This document shows, one piece after another, positions 50,158 through 64,000 of a stretch of 64,000 nt of DNA. The notes below the pieces were generated by a model. That model saw only the letters and a list, made by a program, of their open reading frames with translations. It searched no databases and was not told the DNA's origin. The position numbers and the translations under genes are program-made. Origin of the DNA: Cystobacter ferrugineus (GTDB lineage: Bacteria; Myxococcota; Myxococcia; Myxococcales; Myxococcaceae); NCBI RefSeq assembly GCF_001887355.1, contig NZ_MPIN01000002.1, forward strand, positions 558,001-622,000, written 5' to 3'. The first letter of the stretch is position 1, and each line of letters starts with the position of its first letter.

Positions 50158-51953
50158 AGGTGCCAGAGGATCTCAAGGGACTGTCGGCGTGGACCCTGCG
50201 GCCGTCCTGGTGGGGCGGGGTGCTGGGTCTGCTGTTGTCGTTGCTGTACGGCTACGTCACGCACTCGCTGCCCCTCGGGGACATGGGGTTGTTCCTCGGG
50301 TTGGTGGGGGCGGTGATGACGATGAACGTCCTGCTGACCTACGCCCAGGAGCGGCACGCGTTGCGGGTGCTGTGGGCGCTGGAGCAGGGGCGGCTGCCTC
50401 CCACTCCGGACAACCTGCGCCGGGCGCTGCAGGAGGTCCGCCGCGTTCCCGGCCGCTCCTTCTGGTTCACCCTCCAGGGGTGGTTGGGGGGCACGCTGCT
50501 CCTGGCGGCGACCTACACCTCGCTGTCCGCGGTGCACTGGATGGTGGGGGTGCGCATCGGCCTGGTGGGCGTGTCGCTCGGGCCGCTGTCCTCCATGCTC
50601 GTCTATCTGCTGGTGGTGCGCCGCAGCCGCCGGGCCGCCGTGCTCATCGCGGACAAGGGCTTGTCGCCGCAGGAGGTCATCTCCGCCCTGCCCGCCGAGC
50701 GGTTGCGGCTGCGCAGGCGCCTGGTGTTGTTCACCGCCGTGGCGGTGCTCTGCCCGTCCGTCTTCATCCTCGACGTGTCTGTCAGCCGCACCATGGACAC
50801 CTTCGATCAGATCCTCGAGACGAGGGATCTCCAGGCGCAACAGCGCGTGGTGCATCAGGCGCGCCGGGCCACGGGCCTGCCGCTGGGGGTGCTCGCCGGG
50901 CTGGTGGTGGTGTTGGTGCTGGGCACGGCGTACGTGGCGGGCACGGCGCTCGCCGAGCCGCTGCGTGCCCTGTCGGAGGACGCCACGCGCATCGCCCAGG
51001 GCGAGGTGCGCACCCCCCGCTTCATCCCCGCCGAGGACGAGGTGTGGGCCGTGTCCGCCGCCTTCACCCGCATGCAGGCGCAGCTCGCCCAGGCGCTCGT
51101 GCAGTTGCAGCGCGCGGGGCTGCAGATCTCCTCCACCACCGAGCAACTGGTGGCGACGTCCGCGGATCAGGAGTCCGGCGCGGGCGAGCAGGCCGTGTCG
51201 CTCAACGAGACGCGTGCCACCACCGAGGAGCTGGCGCGCTCGGCGCAGCAGATCGCCGTCAACGCCGAGTCGGTGTCCGCCATGGCGGAGACCACCTTCG
51301 GGGCGGCGCAGAGCGGGCAGCGCAGCGCGGCGGCCTTCCTCGCCGCCATGCACCGGATGAAGGGCGACAACCAGGCCATCGCCGATGCCGTGGTGCGGCT
51401 CAACAAGCGGGTGCAACAGATTGGCAAGGTGGTCGAGTTCATCAACGAGATCGCCGACAAGTCGGACCTGCTCGCGCTCAACGCCGAGCTGGAGGGCACC
51501 AAGGCGGGCGAGCCCGGCCGGGGCTTCTCGCTCGTGGCGGCGGAGATGCGCCGGCTGGCGGAGAACGTGCTGTCCTCCACCCTGGCCATCGAGCGGCTCA
51601 TCGATGAAATCCGCGACGCCACCCAGGCCGCGGTGATGGCCACGGAGGCGGGGCTGAAGACGACGGAGCGGGGCGCGTCGTTGGCGGCGCAGGTGGACGC
51701 GAGCCTGGGCCTCATCCTCGAGCTGGCGCGGCAGACGTCCCACGCCGTGCGCTCCATCTCGCTGGCCACCCAGCAGCAGCAGACGGGCACGGATCAGCTC
51801 GCCGCGGCCATGGGCGACATCCTGCGCGTGACGGAGGAGAACGCCGAGGCCACCCAGCAGATGGTGGCCGCCAACACGGACCTGTCCGCGCTCGCGCGCG
51901 ACTTGAAGGCCACCGTGCAGCGCTTCCGCGTGGCGGACCGGGAGGGGGCATGA
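50154..51953 (+). CDS. Methyl-accepting chemotaxis protein with six-helix membrane domain
   Basis: A 599-residue receptor. Unlike classical MCPs it has no large periplasmic domain; six membrane helices are seen in residues 17-270 (LGLLLSLLYGYVTHSL, MGLFLGLVGAVMTMNVLL, LGGTLLLAATYTSLSAVHWM, IGLVGVSLGPLSSMLVYLLV, LFTAVAVLCPSVFILDV, LGVLAGLVVVLVLGTAYVAG). A HAMP-like part follows, then the signalling hairpin tip ADKSDLLALNAELEGTKAGE (Frz-like LEGTKAGE, not IEAARAGE). The GTG start at 50154 overlaps the CheW-like gene's stop. GGGGAGG precedes it. Confidence 0.88.
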   Translation: MKVPEDLKGLSAWTLRPSWWGGVLGLLLSLLYGYVTHSLPLGDMGLFLGLVGAVMTMNVLLTYAQERHALRVLWALEQGRLPPTPDNLRRALQEVRRVPGRSFWFTLQGWLGGTLLLAATYTSLSAVHWMVGVRIGLVGVSLGPLSSMLVYLLVVRRSRRAAVLIADKGLSPQEVISALPAERLRLRRRLVLFTAVAVLCPSVFILDVSVSRTMDTFDQILETRDLQAQQRVVHQARRATGLPLGVLAGLVVVLVLGTAYVAGTALAEPLRALSEDATRIAQGEVRTPRFIPAEDEVWAVSAAFTRMQAQLAQALVQLQRAGLQISSTTEQLVATSADQESGAGEQAVSLNETRATTEELARSAQQIAVNAESVSAMAETTFGAAQSGQRSAAAFLAAMHRMKGDNQAIADAVVRLNKRVQQIGKVVEFINEIADKSDLLALNAELEGTKAGEPGRGFSLVAAEMRRLAENVLSSTLAIERLIDEIRDATQAAVMATEAGLKTTERGASLAAQVDASLGLILELARQTSHAVRSISLATQQQQTGTDQLAAAMGDILRVTEENAEATQQMVAANTDLSALARDLKATVQRFRVADREGA

Positions 51954-53797
51954 GCCGTCCCGTCTTGTCGTGGGTGCACCGTCCCTTCAGCCGCCCCCTG
52001 ATGGGCGCCATCGTCACCGCCAACGTCATCACCGCGCTGCTCGGCTCGCGCTACGCGCTGTTGACCGCCAGCATGCGCCTGAAGGAGAGCCTGACGCTGT
52101 TCCTCTCCCTGATGGGCAGCTTCTGTCTGGCGGCCATCGGGGTGGTGTGGTTCCTGGCCCTGCGCCGGCTGCGCGTGCTGCGCGAGGTGGAAGTCCTGCG
52201 TCCTCCCGTGGCGCCCGAGCGGTTGAGCCAGGCCCTGCTGGAGAGCCACCGCCTGGCCGACTTCGCCTTCGTCGCCACGCTGGTGGGGTGGCTGCTGGCC
52301 GCCGCGTTCGCCAACGTCGCGCTGTGGAGCCTGGGGGGGTTCACGGGCTCCCTGGTGGAATTGCGCACCTGCCTGCCGGGCCTGCTCTTCGGGCCGCTCG
52401 CCGCGCTGCTCACGTACTGCATGGTCACCCTGCGCGCTCGCGCGGTGGGCTTGATCCTGTCGTCCCGGGGACTGACGCACCCGCAGGCCATCTCCGTGGT
52501 GCCCAGGCGCGCGCAGATCCGCCTGCGGCTCATCCTCTTCACCGCCATCGTCGTGGTGACGCCCGCGGTGTTCATCTGGGACGTGTCCTCGGTGCTGACC
52601 CACCGGGCCTACGATGAGCTGTTGGCGACGAGCCCGGAGCGCCAGGCGGCCCTGGTCGAGGAGCTGCGCATGGACGCCATCGAGGTGGGGGGCGCGATGT
52701 GCCTGCTCGTCTTCGCCGTGGCGCTGGCGGCCGCCTACCTGGGCGGCACGCTCCTGGGCCGGCCCATGCGCCAGCTCGGCGAGGCGGCCCACCACATCGC
52801 CGAGGGAGACCTCAGCCAGCCCCGCCTCATCCCCGCGGAGGATGAGATCTGGTCCGTCTCCGCCGCCTTCTCCACCATGCGGGCGCACCTGGCCGGCGTG
52901 CTCGCGCAGTTGCAGCGCGCGGGCAGCCGCATCGGCACCACCACCGAGGAGATCCTCGCCACCTCCTCGCGCTACGAGGCCGGGGCCGCCGAGCAGGCCA
53001 GCTCCCTGGATCAGACGAGCGCCACCACCGAGGAGCTGGCGCGCTCGGCGCGGCAGATCGCCGAGAACGCGGGCTCCGTGGCGGAGATCGCCCACAAGAC
53101 GCTCGCGGCGGCCAAGGCGGGCCAGGCCAGCTCCGAGGCCTTCATGGAGACCATGAGCCGCATGCGTCACGACAACCAGGCCATCGCCGCGGCGGTGGCC
53201 CGGTTGAACAAGCGCGTGCAGCAGATTGGGAAGATCGTCGAGTTCATCAACGGCGTGGCCGACAAGTCGGACCTGCTCGCGCTCAACGCCGAGCTGGAGG
53301 GCACCAAGGCCGGTGAGGTGGGGCATGGCTTCTCGCTCGTGGCGGCGGAGATGCGCCGGCTCGCGGAGAACGTCATCGAGTCCACCAAGGAAATCGAGGG
53401 GCTCATCGAGGAGGTGCGCGATGCGTCGGGTGGCGCGGTGATGGCCACCGAGGGCGGCGTGCGCGCCACCGAGACGGGCACCACGCTCGCCCAGCAGGTC
53501 TCCGAGTCGCTGCGGCAGATCGTCGAGCTGGCCGGGAGGACCTCGGACGCGGTGCGCGCGATCTCCCTCGCCACCCAGCAGCAGCAGGGCGGCACGGACC
53601 TGCTGGCCGAGGCCATGGCGGACATCCTGCGCATCACCCAGCAGAGTCACAACGCCACCAAGCAGGTCATCAGCGCCAACGGAGACCTGTCCACGCTGGC
53701 CCGGGACCTGAGGAGCGTGGTGGAGCGCTTCCAGATCGAATCCTCCGCGTCCTCCTCCTCGTCCTCGTCTTCCTCCTCTCCGGGAGCGTTCGGGTGA
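51950..53797 (+). CDS. Second six-helix MCP, tandem paralogue
   Basis: A 615-residue paralogue of the preceding receptor with the same plan: helices such as LMGAIVTANVITALLGSRYA and GAMCLLVFAVALAAAYLGG, then HAMP-like residues and the tip ADKSDLLALNAELEGTKAGE. Membrane domains have diverged far more than the signalling domains, as expected if the two receptors sense different things and share one kinase. The C-terminus carries a run of serines from a TCC-type microsatellite. It overlaps both neighbours by 4 nt. Confidence 0.88.
   Translation: MSRPVLSWVHRPFSRPLMGAIVTANVITALLGSRYALLTASMRLKESLTLFLSLMGSFCLAAIGVVWFLALRRLRVLREVEVLRPPVAPERLSQALLESHRLADFAFVATLVGWLLAAAFANVALWSLGGFTGSLVELRTCLPGLLFGPLAALLTYCMVTLRARAVGLILSSRGLTHPQAISVVPRRAQIRLRLILFTAIVVVTPAVFIWDVSSVLTHRAYDELLATSPERQAALVEELRMDAIEVGGAMCLLVFAVALAAAYLGGTLLGRPMRQLGEAAHHIAEGDLSQPRLIPAEDEIWSVSAAFSTMRAHLAGVLAQLQRAGSRIGTTTEEILATSSRYEAGAAEQASSLDQTSATTEELARSARQIAENAGSVAEIAHKTLAAAKAGQASSEAFMETMSRMRHDNQAIAAAVARLNKRVQQIGKIVEFINGVADKSDLLALNAELEGTKAGEVGHGFSLVAAEMRRLAENVIESTKEIEGLIEEVRDASGGAVMATEGGVRATETGTTLAQQVSESLRQIVELAGRTSDAVRAISLATQQQQGGTDLLAEAMADILRITQQSHNATKQVISANGDLSTLARDLRSVVERFQIESSASSSSSSSSSSPGAFG
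53737..53778 (+). repeat. Serine-coding TCC/TCG microsatellite
   Basis: A run of TCC, TCG and TCT triplets codes for about twelve serines in the last residues of the second MCP. Slippage here would change tail length and, because the overlapped cheA start follows, could also affect coupling. Confidence 0.6.
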
Positions 53798-56247
53798 GCA
53801 GCGCGCGGGAGAAGTTGCTCAAGCAATTCCGCGAGCTGGTGGGTGTACGCCTGGAGCGCATCAACCGCCGCATCGTGGAGCTGGAGGCGGGAGCGAGCCT
53901 GGAAGCGGGCCGTACCGTGTTGCGCGAGCTGCACGGGCTCAAGGGCGAGGCGCGGATGATGGGCTTCGACGCCATCAACGCCGTCGTCCACGAGATGGAG
54001 GAGCTGGTGCGCTCCACGGAGCGCGTCGAGCACGCGCTGTCCGCCGGCTCCATCGACGCGCTCCTGCAGGCCGGGGACGCGGTGCTGGTGTTGTCCGGCG
54101 CCGCCGTGCACGAGCCTCCGCAGCCGCCTCCCGAGGTGGACAAGCTGGTGCGCTGGCTGAAGGACTGCACCCGCCTCGAGCAGTCCGGCCTCGCGGGGGC
54201 AGGGCAGGGGAGCGCGGCCCCCTCGTCCCGCGTGGTCCCTCCCCCCGCGCCCCCCCCGCGCCCCGAGCCCCTGGCGCGGGACGAAGAGGAAGTCACTCCG
54301 GCCTGGGGCTCGGCGTCGCTCAACCTCGCGGCCCCGTCGCTGGTGTCGCGTCAGGTGCCCCCGCCCGCGCCGACGCCCCCGCCCGCTGCTTCCCGGACGC
54401 CGGGAGGGGGCCGGCTGGGAGGGGGAGAGCCCGCGCGCCCCGCGCCCTCGGCGGCTGTCGCGGCCACCGCCGCGATTGGCCGGATGCCGCCCGCGGCTCC
54501 CGAATCTCCCGTCCGGGGTACGGGCTCGTCTCCCGCGGTCCGTCCGGGGGATCGCGCGGATGGCTCGGTGCGCATCGGCGTGGCGAGCCTGGATCGCTTG
54601 ACGAGCGCGGTGACCAACCTCACCCAGGTGTCGCGCCGCCGCGAGCTGGCCACCACCCGGCGGTTGGATCTGGCGCGCGAGCTGAGTCTGCTGGCGCGCT
54701 CCGCGGAGGACCTGGGTCCGGCGGGCGCGGAGCTGGCCGAGCGGCTGGGCCGTGCCAAGGAGTTGGCGGCCGCCCTCCACCGCGAGGAGAAGCTGCTGGC
54801 CAACGAGGAGCTGAGGGACCTGGGCTACGTGGCCGACGAGGTGCAGCGCCTGCGCATGCTGCCCCTGTCGGTGCTCTTCGAGCCCTACCCGCGCATGGTG
54901 CGCGACCTCGGGCGCGAGCTGGGCAAGGAAGTGGAGCTGAAGGTGGAGGGCGAGGACACGCGCGCGGACCGGGCCGTGGTGGAGGCGCTGAGGGATCCGC
55001 TGCTGCACCTGGTGCGCAACGCCCTGGACCATGGCCTGGAATCACGCGTGGACCGGGTGGCCGCGGGCAAGCACCCCCGGGGCCGGTTGTCGCTGGTCGC
55101 CGCGCGCGATGGCAACCGGCTCGTGCTTCGGGTGGAGGATGACGGTGTGGGCCTGGAGCCCTCGCTCCTGCGCCGGGCGGCGGTGCGCAAGGGCTTCCTG
55201 GACGAGGCCGCGGCGTCGGCGTTGACGGATCAGGCGGCGCGCGAGCTCATCTTCCTCTCGGGTTTCACCTCCCGCGAGGTGGCCACGGACATCTCCGGGC
55301 GAGGCGTGGGGCTGGACGCCGTGCGCAGCTCGCTCCGGGCGCTGGGCGGCGACGTGTTGGTGTCGTCCGAGGCGGGGGCGGGCACGCGCTTCGAGCTGCG
55401 GGTGCCCGTGTCCCTCACCGTCTCGCCGTTGCTGTTCGTGAAGGTGGCCGAGGAGACGCTGTGCCTGAGCGCCGCCCATGTCTCGCGCGCGGTGAGGGTG
55501 GAGCCCGGCCACCTCAAGGACGTGGCCGGGCGCGCGGTGCTGCAGGTGGATGAGCAGCCCATGCCCTTCGCCTCCCTGCGCTCCCTGCTCGGCCTGGGCG
55601 CCGAGCCGGGCCTGGACGAGGGCGCGCTGGTGCTCGTGGTGCGCAGTCAGGGCGCCATGGCCGCGCTCGCGGTGGATCGCGTCCTGGAGGAGAGCACCCA
55701 GGCCATCCTCCCGCTCAAGGGGTTGTTGGCCCACTACCCCCACCTCACCGGAGCCACCACCCTGGCGGATGGCCGGCTGGCCATGGTGCTGTCCGCGGCG
55801 CACCTCATCGCCAGCGCCCGGGGCCTCACGGGCTCGCGCATCGCCCGATCGGCCGCCGCCCCTCGTCCCGCCCCCGCTCCCCGCCGCCGCATCCTCGTGG
55901 TGGACGACTCTCCTCTGACTCGCGAGCTCATCGCCTCCCTGCTGGAGGCCGTGGGCTACGACATCCTCATGGCCACCGACGGAGCGGAGGCCCTGGACCT
56001 GCTCGCCCAGAATCCGGTGGACCTGGTCTGCACGGATCTGGAGATGCCGCGCGTGGACGGGCTCGAGCTGACCCGCCGGCTCAAGGAGCACCCCACCCAC
56101 AAGGTTCTCCCCGTGGTCATCCTCACCACCCGTGGTGGAGAGGATGACCGCCAGCGCGGGCTCGCCGCGGGGGCAGACGGTTACATCACCAAGGGTGACC
56201 TGGTGCGTCAAGATCTCGTGGATGTGGTTGGCCGGCTGCTCGGTTGA
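53794..56247 (+). CDS. cheA: Hybrid CheA histidine kinase with C-terminal receiver (FrzE-like)
   Basis: An 817-residue kinase-receiver fusion. HPt: His47 in RELHGLKGEARMMG. A long Pro/Ala linker (about 145-250) replaces the P2 domain. P3-P4: NLTQVSRRRELATTRRLDLA, HLVRNALDHGLE (N box), DDGVGLEP, GRGVGLDAVRSS. CheW-like P5: VKVAEETLCLSAAHVSRAVR. Receiver (about 700-817): ILVVDDSPLTRELIASLLEA, phospho-Asp in VCTDLEMPRVDG. This is the FrzE layout; no separate CheY gene is in the operon, so output goes via this receiver. It overlaps the MCP stop by 4 nt. Confidence 0.93.
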   Translation: MSSAREKLLKQFRELVGVRLERINRRIVELEAGASLEAGRTVLRELHGLKGEARMMGFDAINAVVHEMEELVRSTERVEHALSAGSIDALLQAGDAVLVLSGAAVHEPPQPPPEVDKLVRWLKDCTRLEQSGLAGAGQGSAAPSSRVVPPPAPPPRPEPLARDEEEVTPAWGSASLNLAAPSLVSRQVPPPAPTPPPAASRTPGGGRLGGGEPARPAPSAAVAATAAIGRMPPAAPESPVRGTGSSPAVRPGDRADGSVRIGVASLDRLTSAVTNLTQVSRRRELATTRRLDLARELSLLARSAEDLGPAGAELAERLGRAKELAAALHREEKLLANEELRDLGYVADEVQRLRMLPLSVLFEPYPRMVRDLGRELGKEVELKVEGEDTRADRAVVEALRDPLLHLVRNALDHGLESRVDRVAAGKHPRGRLSLVAARDGNRLVLRVEDDGVGLEPSLLRRAAVRKGFLDEAAASALTDQAARELIFLSGFTSREVATDISGRGVGLDAVRSSLRALGGDVLVSSEAGAGTRFELRVPVSLTVSPLLFVKVAEETLCLSAAHVSRAVRVEPGHLKDVAGRAVLQVDEQPMPFASLRSLLGLGAEPGLDEGALVLVVRSQGAMAALAVDRVLEESTQAILPLKGLLAHYPHLTGATTLADGRLAMVLSAAHLIASARGLTGSRIARSAAAPRPAPAPRRRILVVDDSPLTRELIASLLEAVGYDILMATDGAEALDLLAQNPVDLVCTDLEMPRVDGLELTRRLKEHPTHKVLPVVILTTRGGEDDRQRGLAAGADGYITKGDLVRQDLVDVVGRLLG

Positions 56248-56316
56248 TGGCGCACTGCCGCATGTGGGGCCACATTGGCTATACTCCAGGGAGTGCGCAC
56301 GGGGTATGGAAGTCAC

Positions 56317-57375
56317 ATGGGCAAGAAAGTGTCGGTGCTGGTCGTTGACGACTCGCACATCTGCCGACAGCTGATTTGCGAAGCACTGAGCCGGGATCCG
56401 GATCTGGAAGTGGTGGGAACGTGCGCCAACGGCCAGGAGGCTCTCGACGCGGCACGAGATCTCCGTCCCCAGGTCATCACCATGGACGTGGAGATGCCGG
56501 TGATGGATGGGCTCACGGCCGTGGAGCACATCATGGCCGAGGTGCCCACGCCCATCCTGATGCTCACCGCGGATCCGCGGCAGCAGGCGCCGGAGCTCAC
56601 GTGCCGGGCGCTGGAGATCGGCGCCCTGGCGCTGCAGATCAAGCCTTCCATCGACGCGGGCACGGAGGCGTGGAACCTGTCGCGCGAGGTGAAGCTCTTG
56701 TCCTCGGTGCGCGTCATCCGCCACATCCACAGCAAGCGCCGGCCCCCCCTGCCGGGCGGAGGCGTGGCGCCGCCCGCTCCGGTGGGCATGCCCTATGGCG
56801 TGCTCGCGGTGGCCAGCTCCACGGGCGGTCCCCAGGTGCTCTTCCGCATGGTGTCGGAATTGCCGGCGGACTTCCCCACGCCCATCGTCATCGTGCAGCA
56901 CATCAACGCCGCCTTCTCCGAGTCGCTGGCGGGTTGGCTCGCCAACTCCTCCAAGCTCAAGGTGCGGCTGGCTCAGGACGGCGAGCAGCTCCTGCCGGGC
57001 AACGTGCTCATCGCCCCGCCGGGCCAGCACATGTCCATTCCCTTCCGGGGCCGGGTGGCGCTGCGGCCGGGGGTGGAGCGTGACGGGCACATGCCCTCGG
57101 GCACGGTGCTGCTGGAGAGCGCGGCCAAGGCGTACGGACGGCGCGCCATGGGCCTCATCCTCACCGGCATGGGCGAGGATGGCGCGGACGGCATGCTCGC
57201 CATCAAGCAGGCCGGGGGCCTGACGCTGGCGCAGAACGAGGAGTCCTGCGTGGTGTTCGGCATGCCGGGCGCGGCGGTGGCGCGCAAGGCGGTGGATCAC
57301 CTGGTCCACGGAGATGACGTGGCGAGCACGCTGGTGCGCCTGGTGCGCGGTGAGTCCCTCTCCGTGGGTCGCTGA
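56317..57375 (+). CDS. cheB: Chemotaxis response regulator protein-glutamate methylesterase
   Basis: A 352-residue CheB that removes methyl groups from (or deamidates) receptor glutamates. Receiver: DD at 11-12 and Asp57 ([12 protein letters not shown]). Catalytic domain: Ser in [11 protein letters not shown], His in [12 protein letters not shown] and Asp in [10 protein letters not shown]. It pairs with CheR downstream for adaptation. ATG 56317 was chosen at the receiver start; a 69-bp gap from cheA precedes it. Confidence 0.95.
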
Positions 57376-57382
57376 AGCCTCG

Positions 57383-58708
57383 GTGCCTCCCTCCCGCTCT
57401 CCCTTCGCTCCCATCCACGCGCTCGTGGCGCGGCGCACGGGCACGGCCCTGAGCGAGCTGCAGAGCCGGCGCATCGACGAGAAGCTGGCGGGACGGCCCG
57501 GTGGGATGAGCGCGCGCTATCTGCTCTACCTGCAATCCCCCGCGGGAGCCGCGGAGCTGGCCGAGCTCATCGACGCCATCTCCGTGCAGAAGACGGAGCT
57601 GTTCCGGGACGAGGCCCAGCTCGAGGCGCTGCGCACGCACGTGCTGGCGCCGCTGGTGGCCCGAGCCCGCCGGCCGCTGCGGCTGTGGAGCGCGGGGTGC
57701 GCCACCGGCGAGGAGGTGGCCACGCTGCTGGTGATGCTCGCCGAGGTGGGCGCGGATCCGGCCAGCACGGTGCTGGGCACGGACATGTCGGAGACGGCGA
57801 TCGCGCGCGCGCGCGAGCTGTGCTTCAGCTCGGAGCAGCTCCAGCGGGTGCCGCTTGGCGTGCGGGATCGCTGGTTCGTGTCCCTGGGCTCGGGCCGTCA
57901 CTCGCTCGTCGGACACCTGAAGGAGCGCGCCAGCTTCCTCGTCCACAACCTCATGGAGCCGTCCTATCCCTCGACGGTGGAGGGGCGGGGCTTCGACATC
58001 ATCGTCTGCCGCAACGTGCTCATCTACCTCACCCCCGAGTCCTTCTCCCGGGTGGTGGAGTCCCTCGCCGAGCGGCTCGCGTCCGAGGGTCTGCTGGTGC
58101 TCTCTTCCACCGAGCCGCTGCTGAGCGCTCCGCCGAGCCTGCGCACCCTGCGCTATGCGGACGCGTTCTTCTATGGCCGCGCGCCTCCCGAGGCCCCGCC
58201 CGGTGTCCCGGCCCCTTCCATGCCGGCTCTGTCCGCGGTGCGCCCCTCGCAGTCGGGTCTGCCCGCGGTGCGCCCCTCGCAGTCGGGTCTGCCCGCGGTG
58301 CGCCCCTCGCAGTCGGGTCTTCCCGCCGTGTCTCCCACCAGGCCGGGTGATCCTCCGGAAGCCGCTCGCGGCGAGGACTCCGCGCATCGGGATGCCGACG
58401 CGCTCTTCAGTCAGGTACTGGACGCGGTGGGCAGTCAGAGCCAGCCGGATCCCCAGACGGAGGACAGCTTGCGGCGGTGCCTCTTTTTGGATCCGGATCT
58501 GGCCGCGGCGCGCTATCTGCTGGGCCTGGTATTCGAACAACGCGGCGCGTGGACGGATGCGGCGGTCGAGTACCGGCGCGCGTTGCGCTCCCTGGAGGAG
58601 GGCAGGGCGCGCGCCACCCCTTTCTTCACCAATAACTCCCGGCTCCAGATGGCCTGCGTGCGGGCCATCGAGCGCGTGGAGCGGGCCACTCCCCCGACGT
58701 CGCGTTGA
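57383..58708 (+). CDS. cheR: CheR methyltransferase with C-terminal TPR-like domain
   Basis: A 441-residue receptor glutamate methyltransferase. N-terminal helical domain, then the SAM-binding fold: LWSAGCATGEEVATL, TVLGTDMSETAIARA, and FDIIVCRNVLIYL. A linker (about 275-325) contains three tandem GLPAVRPSQS units; the last ~110 residues are TPR-like (LAAARYLLGLVFEQRGAWTD), as in FrzF. It starts at GTG 57383, 7 nt after the cheB stop. It closes the chemosensory operon. Confidence 0.93.
   Translation: MPPSRSPFAPIHALVARRTGTALSELQSRRIDEKLAGRPGGMSARYLLYLQSPAGAAELAELIDAISVQKTELFRDEAQLEALRTHVLAPLVARARRPLRLWSAGCATGEEVATLLVMLAEVGADPASTVLGTDMSETAIARARELCFSSEQLQRVPLGVRDRWFVSLGSGRHSLVGHLKERASFLVHNLMEPSYPSTVEGRGFDIIVCRNVLIYLTPESFSRVVESLAERLASEGLLVLSSTEPLLSAPPSLRTLRYADAFFYGRAPPEAPPGVPAPSMPALSAVRPSQSGLPAVRPSQSGLPAVRPSQSGLPAVSPTRPGDPPEAARGEDSAHRDADALFSQVLDAVGSQSQPDPQTEDSLRRCLFLDPDLAAARYLLGLVFEQRGAWTDAAVEYRRALRSLEEGRARATPFFTNNSRLQMACVRAIERVERATPPTSR
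58231..58334 (+). repeat. 30-bp tandem repeat in the cheR linker
   Basis: About 3.3 copies of a 30-bp unit (CCCGCGGTGCGCCCCTCGCA then GTCGGGTCTG) encode GLPAVRPSQS. The first copies are identical at the base level. The same peptide motif occurs in the PATAN protein at 10106. Confidence 0.85.
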
Positions 58709-58786: not shown

Positions 58787-59638
58787 ATGCGAAGGCTTGC
58801 CCTCATCGCCCTCCCTTTCATGCTCTCGGGCTGCTTCTACCCGGCGGCTCGCGGACGCGCGCTGGAGACCCGGCTGGATCAACTCGATGCCTCCCAGGCG
58901 CAGATCCAGGCGGAGCTGAAGCGCACGCGCGAGCAGCTCGACGCCACGCTGCCGCTCATCGACGAGAAGATCGCCCAGGTGTCCAAGGCCCTGGACGGTC
59001 TGGACAAGGCCTCGCGCCGCTCGGGCGCGGACATCGGCATCCAGCTCCAGAAGACGGTGGAGGACCTGGCCCAGCTCCGCGGCCAGGTGGAGACGTACGT
59101 CTACAAGATTGGCGAGCTGGAGGCGGCGCTCGCGAAGACGACCGAGGACACCGACAAGCGGCTGCTCGAAATCAAGGGAGAGCAGGCGCTCAAGGAGGCC
59201 GAGGCCCGCAAGAAGGCCGAGGAGCTCAAGCGTCCCACGGACAAGAAGGAGTTCCTCGCGCTGGCCCAGGACAAGGCCAAGGCCGGTGACGTGACGCTCG
59301 CCCGCCAGCTCTACGGGGAGTTCATCAAGAAGTGGCCCAAGGACGCGCTCGTGGCCGAGGCCCACTTCGGGCTGGGCGAGAGCTACTTCGCCGAGGACAA
59401 GTGCCGCGAGGCCCTCTTCGAGTATGGCAAGCTCTTGCAGGAGCACCCCAAGGCGGCCTCCACGCCGGAGGCCTACCTGCGCTCCTCGGAGTGCTTCCAG
59501 AAGCTGAAGATGCAGGATGAGGCGCGGCTGGCGCTCGAGGAGCTCGTGAAGGGCTACCCGAAGTCCGATGCGGCCAAGACGGCCAAGACGCGGCTCGCGG
59601 AGCTGGACAAGGCGAAGAAGAAGGGAAGCAAGAAATGA
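58787..59638 (+). CDS. YbgF/CpoB-like coiled-coil TPR lipoprotein
   Basis: A 283-residue lipoprotein (lipobox FMLSGC). A coiled coil fills about 25-150 (LDQLDASQAQIQAELKRTRE; VEDLAQLRGQVETYVYKIGE). A TPR/YbgF C-terminal domain (about 155-270) follows: ARQLYGEFIKKWPKDALVAE, AHFGLGESYFAEDKCREAL. YbgF/CpoB works with Tol-Pal and PBP1b in envelope constriction. The tail is Lys-rich. Its stop overlaps the ATG of the candidate selenoprotein (ATGA), so the two are translationally coupled. Confidence 0.85.
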   Translation: MRRLALIALPFMLSGCFYPAARGRALETRLDQLDASQAQIQAELKRTREQLDATLPLIDEKIAQVSKALDGLDKASRRSGADIGIQLQKTVEDLAQLRGQVETYVYKIGELEAALAKTTEDTDKRLLEIKGEQALKEAEARKKAEELKRPTDKKEFLALAQDKAKAGDVTLARQLYGEFIKKWPKDALVAEAHFGLGESYFAEDKCREALFEYGKLLQEHPKAASTPEAYLRSSECFQKLKMQDEARLALEELVKGYPKSDAAKTAKTRLAELDKAKKKGSKK

Positions 59639-60744
59639 GCAGGCGTCCGTTCCTCCTGGCGCTGTTGGCGCTGCTGCTCTCGCCCTGGGTGGCGGGGGCG
59701 GAGCCCAAGCACGTGGTGCTCCTCTTCACCGGAGACAATGGGGGCGAAATCGCCCCCTGTGGTTGAAGCCACAACCCGTCTGGCGGTCTGGCCAGACGAA
59801 AGACGGTCTTCTCGCGGGAGCGCGCGAAGGGGCCGGTGCTGGTGCTGGATTCAGGAAACGCTCTCTTCAAATCACCCGCTCCCGGAGGCATGGCTCGGGA
59901 GAAGGAGCGGGCCGTGTTGTTGCTCGAGCAGATGGATGCCCTGGGCACCACGGCCATGGCCGTGGGCGCGCGCGACCTCACCCTGGGGGCCGACTTCCTT
60001 TCCCAGACGGTGAAGGGCAAGAAGCTCAAGCTGCTGTCCGCCAACCTCGTGGACGCGGAGGGCAAGCCCCTGTTCGCCGCTTCCACCGTGGTGACGGTGG
60101 GCGGGGTGAAGTTCGGCGTGGTGGGCGTATCGCCCCCGGGCCCGGTCTCCACGGCCAAGGGAGTCAAGGGCCTGCCTCCGGCCAAGGCCGCCCTCGCCGA
60201 GGCACGCCGGCTGCGCGAGAAGGACAAGGTGGACGTGGTGGTGCTGCTCGCGGCGCTTCCCCAGACCGAACTCCAACCCCTGTCGGTGCAGGTGGGCACC
60301 ACGGTGGACTTCATCCTCCAGTCCCACGAAGGCCGGGCGTTCCTGCCCCAGCACAACGACTTCGCCGTGCTCCTCGGGGCGGGCGATCGGGGCCGGCAGG
60401 TCGCCTGGCTGGAGCTCTCCGTGGAGGGGAAGGGGCCCTTCCACGATCTCTCGTCCGCCGAGCGAGCCCAGCAGGGCGTCAAGCTCGTCGAGGAGAACCT
60501 CCAGCAGGCCCGGCGCAGCCTCGCGGCCGCCAAGGACGAGACCGTCCGGGCTTCCTGGCGGGAGACGATCGCCAGCCTGGAGAAACGCATCCAGCAGCTC
60601 TCCCAGGAAGCGAAGCTGGTCGGCAAGGCGGGCGAGCGCACCTTCCGCTTCTCCTACCTCCAGCTCGGCGGCGATGTGGTGGATGATCCAGGCCTGAAGC
60701 GGCTCGTGGAGCGAATCGAGGCCCCGGGGTCCGCATCTCATTAG
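59635..60744 (+). CDS. Candidate selenoprotein: exported metallophosphatase-like protein with in-frame UGA
   Basis: Read with UGA (59764-59766, codon 44) as selenocysteine, the gene gives 369 residues. A signal peptide ([19 protein letters not shown]) leads to [32 protein letters not shown]. From family knowledge, relatives with a 5'-nucleotidase/metallophosphatase fold have PCGCS...GGLARR here, so UGA replaces the second Cys. The rest is intact: [42 protein letters not shown], then a helical tail. Metal-ligand positions look partly altered, so a redox or binding role is as likely as hydrolysis. Start ATG 59635 overlaps the YbgF-like gene's stop. Automated calling would probably begin at GTG 59836 and miss the signal and the Sec site. 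The alternative is a nonsense mutation; the hairpin at 59777-59798 argues against it. Confidence 0.8.
59764..59798 (+). promoter_or_regulatory. UGA codon with bacterial SECIS-like hairpin
   Basis: After UGA (59764-59766), CGTCTGGC (59777-59784) pairs perfectly with GCCAGACG (59791-59798), leaving the loop GGTCTG (59785-59790). The loop's GGUCU starts 18 nt after the UGA. E. coli fdhF, from memory, has the same GGUCU at the same 18-nt distance, where SelB binds. The codons TCT, GGT, AGA and CGA inside the hairpin are rare for this GC-rich genome, as if selected for RNA pairing. Confidence 0.8.
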
Positions 60745-60865: not shown

Positions 60866-61129
60866 ATGAAGCCCGATCTGCACCCGGTTTACGCCCCGTC
60901 TCGCATCACCTGTGCGTGCGGCAATGTCGTCGAGACGCGGTCCTCGCGTGGCTCGTTCTCCGTGGAAGTCTGCTCGAACTGCCACCCCTTCTTCACCGGC
61001 AAGTACAAGCTGCTCGACACCGCGGGCCGCGTGGAGAAGTTCCGCAAGAAGTACGCCGCCAAGCCCGCCGAGGGCGCCGCGGAGGGCGCCGCTCCCGCCA
61101 AGAAGGGCGGCAAGAAGGCCGAGGCCTGA
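60866..61129 (+). CDS. rpmE: 50S ribosomal protein L31
   Basis: An 87-residue large-subunit protein of the zinc-binding (C+) type: CACG near residue 16 and [10 protein letters not shown] near 37 supply four cysteines. [20 protein letters not shown] is the usual start. The tail is longer and richer in Ala/Lys than in E. coli ([18 protein letters not shown]). ATG 60866 follows GGGAG. A terminator with a T-run follows. Confidence 0.95.
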
Positions 61130-63003: not shown

Positions 63004-64000
63004 CTATTTGGGCTCGTCGGCCACCGGGCCGGTGACGCCGGGGGCCACCCACTGCATCTGGTTGAGCTCCTCCTTCGTCAGCGTCTTGCCCGCGGGCACG
63101 CGCGTGGCGCCGTGGCGATCCTGGAGCGGGCCCGTGAAGGGATCGAAGCCGGGCTTGCTCGAGGACATGTCCTTGAGCAGCTCCTGCACCCGGTCATGCA
63201 CGGACACCTGCTTGCCGCCCACTGTCATCTGCGCCTTCTTCAGCGCGTCCACGAACTTGGGATTGATGGGCACTCCCGGCTGGCCGCCCATCTCCACCGC
63301 GCCCTCGCGCAGCAGCCACCAGTAGTCCACCTCCTGGAGCTTGCCCGGCGCGTACGTGCCGTTGCGCACCTTGCTCAGGAAGTCGATGTAGATCTTCTCC
63401 CAGTGCACCAGTTGTCCTGACACCACGAAGTCCGGCGCGAAGCGCTGCATGGGCGAGTAGTGCGCGAAGGACGGCACCTTCTTGCGCCCCGCCACCTGCA
63501 CCACCGTGGCCGTGTCCTCGGTGAAGGCCAGCACGTCATTGCCCTCGGCCATCAGCGCCTCGGCCGCCTCGCGAGCCTTCACCGGGCTCACCCAGGCGCT
63601 GATCCACTTCACGTTCACCGTGGCCTGGGGATTCACCGCCCGCACGCCCATTGCGAACGCGGAGATGTGACGCTTCAGCTCGGGAATGGGGAAGGCGCCC
63701 ACGTAGCCTACCTTGCCGGTCTTCGTCAGCGCCCCCGCCATCAGACCGTTGAGGTAGTAGATTTGATAGAAGTCGGCCATGTAGGTGGCCATGTTGGGCG
63801 CCCGCTTGAAGCCCGTGGCGTGCGCGAACACCACCTTCGGGTACTTCCTGGCCGCCTCGAGCGTCTGATCCATGAAGCCGAAGCTCGTGGTGAACACCAC
63901 CTGGCAGCCGCCCTTCACCAGCCGATCGATGACGGGCAGCGCCTGGCCCTCGGGCACGGACTCCACGTACTGGGTCTCCAACCACGGCAGCGCCTTCATG
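63004..64000 (-). CDS. BMP-family (PnrA/Med-like) ABC transporter solute-binding protein, N-terminus cut by window edge
   Basis: 331 or more residues of a basic-membrane-protein type lipoprotein, which binds nucleosides or related ligands for an ABC importer. Visible blocks: GGCQVVFTTSFGFMDQTLEA, KYPKVVFAHATGFKRAPNMA, GKVGYVGAFPIPELKRHISA, FTEDTATVVQVAGRK and DFLSKVRNGTYAPGKLQEV. The signal and first ~60 residues lie outside the window, so the Met near 63999 is internal. Partner permease and ATPase genes, if present, are beyond the right edge. Confidence 0.88.
   Translation of the reverse strand, partial: MKALPWLETQYVESVPEGQALPVIDRLVKGGCQVVFTTSFGFMDQTLEAARKYPKVVFAHATGFKRAPNMATYMADFYQIYYLNGLMAGALTKTGKVGYVGAFPIPELKRHISAFAMGVRAVNPQATVNVKWISAWVSPVKAREAAEALMAEGNDVLAFTEDTATVVQVAGRKKVPSFAHYSPMQRFAPDFVVSGQLVHWEKIYIDFLSKVRNGTYAPGKLQEVDYWWLLREGAVEMGGQPGVPINPKFVDALKKAQMTVGGKQVSVHDRVQELLKDMSSSKPGFDPFTGPLQDRHGATRVPAGKTLTKEELNQMQWVAPGVTGPVADEPK

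Follow-up and report, generated by a model that had tools for sequence, protein, structure and literature searches.

An in-frame UGA predicted to encode selenocysteine in a short UshA-like protein of Cystobacter ferrugineus and its myxobacterial relatives

The window, a stretch of 64,000 nucleotides from the Cystobacter ferrugineus assembly GCF_001887355.1 (contig NZ_MPIN01000002.1) to which all positions below refer, carries on its forward strand a gene (59635-60744) whose single reading frame runs from an ATG at 59635 to a TAG at 60742-60744 and contains one internal stop, a TGA at codon 44 (59764-59766). Read through this codon, the gene encodes a protein of 369 residues. From its frame, its homologues, its match to the NCBIfam model NF041198 and its fold, we assign this protein to a short, cytochrome-less form of the UshA-like PCGU proteins, with selenocysteine (Sec) as residue 44. 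The TGA closes a Pro-Cys-Gly-Sec motif (P41, C42, G43 and U44; 59755-59766) defined by alignment, and Cys42 is the sole cysteine of the protein apart from position 44. A probable signal peptide (59635-59700) was recognised by eye from the sequence and from the N-termini of homologues, in some of the more distant of which a lipobox takes its place. The start codon overlaps the stop codon of the preceding gene, which ends at 59638, as ATGA. The first ORF that a gene caller would be expected to find 3' of the TGA begins with a GTG at 59836 and is 302 aa long. A preliminary description of this DNA had already proposed the frame broken only at codon 44, the ATGA coupling and the gene-caller start at 59836; all three were borne out, the first by direct translation.

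The preceding gene (58787-59638, forward strand) encodes a CpoB/YbgF-like TPR lipoprotein with a lipobox (LSGC16) and two further cysteines, C206 and C236, an assignment based on TPR and YbgF profile matches, synteny and cysteine conservation. Downstream lies the gene for ribosomal protein L31 (rpmE; 60869-61129, forward strand), a conserved neighbour in many Myxococcaceae that is probably unlinked to the selenoprotein gene in function. Directly upstream (51950-58708) and in the same orientation is a chemosensory cluster, read from its translations as MCP-like, CheA hybrid, CheB-like and CheR with repeats; in close relatives, too, CheR is conserved on the upstream side. An ORF on the reverse strand (63004-63999) resembles, by its translation, a BMP/Med-type substrate-binding lipoprotein.

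The source genome (12.05 Mb in 42 contigs, 99.99% complete) encodes the entire Sec machinery. A search for selA, selB, selD and selC had been recommended in the preliminary description, and all four are present above curated cut-offs: SelA scores 556.3 bits, SelB 301.9 bits, SelD 382.9 bits and the tRNA-Sec 71.3 bits, the last also being called by ARAGORN as SeC with the anticodon tca. The same genome uses UGA in a second gene. This gene (locus L103, C10:79800-84200) encodes a formate dehydrogenase alpha subunit with the UGA in its classic place, NQARI-UGA-HSSTVPGLG, followed by a hairpin with a GGUCU loop that starts 19 nt past the UGA, as it does in the window gene.

We read 71 homologous loci base by base. 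Codon 44 is UGA in 54 of them and a Cys codon (TGC or TGT) in the remaining 17, with no other codon at any locus, which upholds the earlier expectation that homologues would carry Cys or UGA at this position. The 54 UGA loci, all with the codon at the identical residue, span many genera and several families. Among 61 aligned proteins, with Sec entered as Cys, C42, G43 and position 44 are invariant. A tree of the 71 proteins implies about nine changes between Sec and Cys, at least six of them on well-supported branches, indicating that the residue has been swapped repeatedly. The 49 loci from named genomes, which overlap partly in species with the 71-locus set and include Myxococcus xanthus AM003, comprise 40 with UGA, seven with Cys and two without coverage of the site. 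Across the 195 Myxococcota genomes searched, about 97 contain a homologue with exactly one internal TGA. A scan of the genome contigs with the window protein as a single query retrieved no relative and the broad alignment (A1) proved too heterogeneous to serve as a query, while a closer alignment did find relatives.

Directly 3' of the UGA lies a SECIS-like hairpin, CGUCUGGC-GGUCUG-GCCAGACG (59777-59798), assigned from folding and covariation. Its apical loop, GGUCUG (59785-59790), begins 19 nt after the UGA, a spacing recognised by comparison with homologues and with the formate dehydrogenase gene. The predicted folding energy is -16.4 kcal/mol, equalled by 3-7 of 200 shuffled sequences. Covariation in the stem is 0.243 compared with 0.107 +/- 0.016 after shuffling (36 distinct sequences), none of 500 shuffles reaching the observed value, and pairings slid along the stem score at most 0.095. 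Twenty-two cells are changed on both sides of the stem, though these cells come from related sequences and are non-independent events. The preliminary description had suspected a hairpin somewhere within 59764-59810, and it is found there with compensatory changes between species.

The hairpin also leaves its mark on codon choice, and a codon count indicates that it holds the codons GGT CTG GCC AGA (59785-59796) in place. In six neighbouring genes, with 248 Arg codons between them, AGA appears once, in this stem. The rare-codon loop GGCGGUCUG, 19 nt past the UGA, is kept in every UGA copy but one and is missing from the Cys copies with one exception. Likewise, of the 54 Sec copies 53 contain GGCGGU (GGC-GGU), whereas a single Cys copy among 17 does (Fisher p 9e-14). 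One Cys copy (L086, in genome G162) retains GGC GGT CTG, and its genome has no SelA match; possibly Sec gave way to Cys here only recently, leaving a remnant of the hairpin.

A natural experiment is provided by genome G094, which is 100% complete in two contigs and has no SelA above the cut-off (best E=1.9e-4). The ortholog there (L021), found in conserved gene order, carries TGC at codon 44 and no longer has the hairpin codons; it reads TCG GGC GGC TTG GCC CGG where UGA-bearing relatives read TCT GGC GGT CTG GCC AGA. More broadly, SelA was found in 94 of the 97 genomes with a UGA copy versus one of five with a syntenic Cys copy (p 4e-5, the genomes being related and non-independent). The three genomes with a UGA copy and no SelA match are G068, G142 and G011 (80, 87 and 92% complete, respectively), while G147 contains SelA yet carries a Cys copy.

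Five independent lines therefore bear on the decoding of codon 44: the machinery, the use of UGA in formate dehydrogenase, the conservation of the site, the hairpin and the loss of SelA in G094. Judged from this comparative sequence evidence, it is close to certain that the UGA encodes Sec. SelB would deliver Sec-tRNA to the codon, guided by the hairpin, and the full 369-residue protein would be made and exported. Under the standard code, of course, UGA terminates translation, and the ORF from 59836 does exist, so that the frame might instead be a pseudogene, or a 43-residue leader peptide followed by a separate protein of 302 residues. This is hardly credible when the UGA falls at one residue in 54 loci and is exchanged for Cys alone, when the PCG motif 5' of it and the frame 3' of it are conserved together, when rare codons uphold the hairpin and when the source genome encodes the whole Sec machinery; moreover, the product from 59836 would have neither a signal peptide nor the opening strand of the fold. 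The recurrence of the UGA in about 97 genomes was a further ground for rejecting a pseudogene, and likewise a sequencing error.

Proteins described as 'COG0737, UshA-like' with a CxU motif have been listed among selenoproteins since the Global Ocean Sampling survey of 2008 (PMC2398784), and the listing is repeated in later reviews (PMC9312934, PMC13188914), the second of which additionally gives an UshA-like selenoprotein family 2 with the motif CxxU. In the window protein, C42-G43-U44 forms a CxU motif within an UshA-type domain. It matches NF041198 (UshA_like_PCGU, 'UshA-like (seleno)protein') with E=9.6e-51 and 172.9 bits, below the cut-off of 275, the alignment covering profile positions 9-375 of 519. 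Ten other short members, scanned singly, score 118-210 bits, all likewise below 275. NF041198 members and the window protein are homologous: both are exported and both have PCG[CU] in the same place, with Sec or Cys at the same site. The two differ in length, as the window protein and its orthologs (~370 aa) end without the tetraheme cytochrome c554 domain (PF13435) that long members carry in the C-terminal part of the profile. Long members with this domain include both Cys forms (L055 and L097-L099) and UGA forms (L078 and L084). One of them, L055 (C14:15296), belongs to the source genome itself; it combines PCGC with tetraheme c554 and lies just downstream of a response-regulator-like ORF. 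The model for family 2 (NF049981) describes a related fold and matches the window protein weakly (41.8 bits, E=8e-11, below its cut-off of 140); its motif is CxxU (PMC13188914) as opposed to the CxU of the window protein.

No Pfam domain was found above cut-off in the window protein, so the family assignment rests on NCBIfam, a PDB profile search and the fold. The short, cytochrome-less branch appears to be an unlisted part of a described selenoprotein family. The proposal of an unannotated selenoprotein thus stands as regards Sec, in view of the machinery, the UGA/Cys pattern and the hairpin, but the family as such was already described and only its short, sub-threshold branch is unlisted. 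As short members fall below the NF041198 cut-off, NCBI's pipeline probably leaves the model unapplied and truncates the gene in most Myxococcaceae, including M. xanthus.

An AlphaFold2 model of the window protein, built from 61 homologues (pLDDT 92.3, pTM 0.89), corresponds to the N-terminal domain of 5'-nucleotidase, superposing on E. coli UshA (1ho5) with Z 32.0 and rmsd 2.1 over 268 residues; the model also resembles SoxB (Z about 30). In agreement with this, the PDB profile search matched the protein to a 5'-nucleotidase (E=1.4e-31). The N-terminal metallophosphoesterase fold is shared with the UshA/5'-nucleotidase family (1ush, 2z1a, CD73), whereas the C-terminal substrate-binding domain is absent, the structural alignment ending at UshA residue 355 of a target length of 525. 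That the gene is a selenoprotein gene with an UshA-type fold, leaving aside any redox role, is very probable.

The metal site of this fold is eroded. At the positions which we take to be the metal ligands and the catalytic His of the UshA fold, placed by profile alignment to 2z1a, the window protein keeps only two of seven ligands, D34 and H231. The His of the D-x-H motif is replaced by G36, the Asp of GD by N75, the Asn of GNHE by A112, the next ligand His by A207 and the second His of GHxH by G233, while the catalytic His of GNHE is replaced by R113. Across the 61 proteins, G36, N75, R113 and A207 each represent the most frequent residue at the position, and Ala or Glu is the commonest kind of replacement at position 112. 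D34, D72, D114 and H231 are for the most part retained, and some distant relatives have more ligands, with Asp at position 75 in 16 of 61 and His at position 207 in 12 of 61. The description of the product as a metallophosphatase-like protein consequently holds for its fold and fails for most of its metal ligands and its catalytic His. In the alignment the PCGU loop follows the first metal-ligand motif and precedes the GGLAR motif, which places the redox motif beside the former metal site.

By sequence and model, the protein consists of one UshA-type metallophosphoesterase domain in which most of the metal site is gone and the Cys-Gly-Sec loop stands beside it. We propose that Cys42 and Sec44 would switch from a selenol/thiol pair to a selenenyl-sulfide and back while the protein trades electrons with a partner in the envelope. 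The window protein would accordingly be an envelope thiol or chalcogen oxidoreductase rather than a phosphatase, a reading based on the motif and on the cytochrome fusion of long relatives, to which we assign a probability of roughly 60%. It differs from the thioredoxin-fold thiol oxidoreductases in that its model (pLDDT 92) has a metallophosphoesterase fold. An active periplasmic phosphoesterase or nucleotidase resembling UshA, in which the role of Sec or Cys is confined to regulation or stability, would agree with the match to the UshA catalytic domain (Z 32), with the retention of D34, D72, D114 and H231 and with the fuller ligand sets of some distant relatives. Such an enzyme seems improbable for a protein in which five of the seven ligands and the catalytic His have been replaced, by the same kinds of residue that are commonest in the family, and from which UshA's C-terminal substrate domain is absent.

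The Cys-Gly-Sec loop could also serve as a site for a metal, a metalloid or a sulfur species (such as copper, mercury, selenite or tellurite, or sulfur chemistry of the SoxB kind) in place of a redox centre of the dithiol-disulfide type. In its favour, SoxB, a thiosulfohydrolase of the same fold superfamily, ranks close in both fold and profile comparisons (TIGR04486, E=9e-10), and multihaem cytochrome domains are joined to the UshA-like domain in some long forms. The SoxB match, however, reaches only 37.4 bits against a cut-off of 550, the fixed neighbour of the gene is the TPR lipoprotein, and no sox gene, nor any other metal or sulfur gene, was recognised in its immediate neighbourhood; we regard this alternative as rather unlikely. 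For the proposed oxidoreductase, the fusion of the domain to a tetraheme c554-type cytochrome in long relatives suggests electron exchange with cytochromes, and the short form, which has no cytochrome of its own, has to work with a partner that is not fused to it.

Among possible partners of the short form, the best candidate is the coupled TPR lipoprotein, in which two cysteines are conserved, and we name it tentatively, as one possibility. It adjoins nearly all short-form orthologs directly upstream, Cys-containing ones included, and of 51 loci, 43 retain one of its two non-lipobox cysteines and 46 the other. The TPR neighbour is not shared by the long and paralogous forms in synteny comparisons, and inspection by eye of the ORFs beside Cys paralogues and long forms revealed no single partner common to all. 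The TPR cysteines were rejected as a proven substrate: one or both are missing from the TPR lipoprotein at four UGA-bearing loci (L073-L076), and one of the two is also present in the nearest TPR paralogue in the source genome, which is unlinked (C6:172058). A more far-reaching and rather doubtful reading is that the Cys-Gly-Sec loop has replaced a dismantled phosphatase metal centre, yielding a dedicated oxidoreductase of non-thioredoxin fold for the coupled CpoB-like lipoprotein that would be near-universal in Myxococcaceae, including M. xanthus.

Comparative evidence for a bacterial selenoprotein is very clean at this locus, which combines conservation of Cys or UGA at one site, loss of the hairpin together with SelA and upkeep of the stem by rare codons. 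A literature search, whose coverage took in few of the subscription papers, returned no description of selenoproteins in myxobacteria. M. xanthus is a genetic model in which the function of the gene could be tested directly. Such work would also help to show what UshA-like PCGU proteins do. Some genomes with a UGA copy also have short Cys paralogues (L089-L096), in which the motif reads HCGC, DCGC, PCGC or QCGC and the TPR gene is not adjacent. A typical myxobacterial copy with its TPR neighbour was also found in a record titled 'Comamonas sp. KCTC 72670' (L124), the name or contents of which therefore look wrong.
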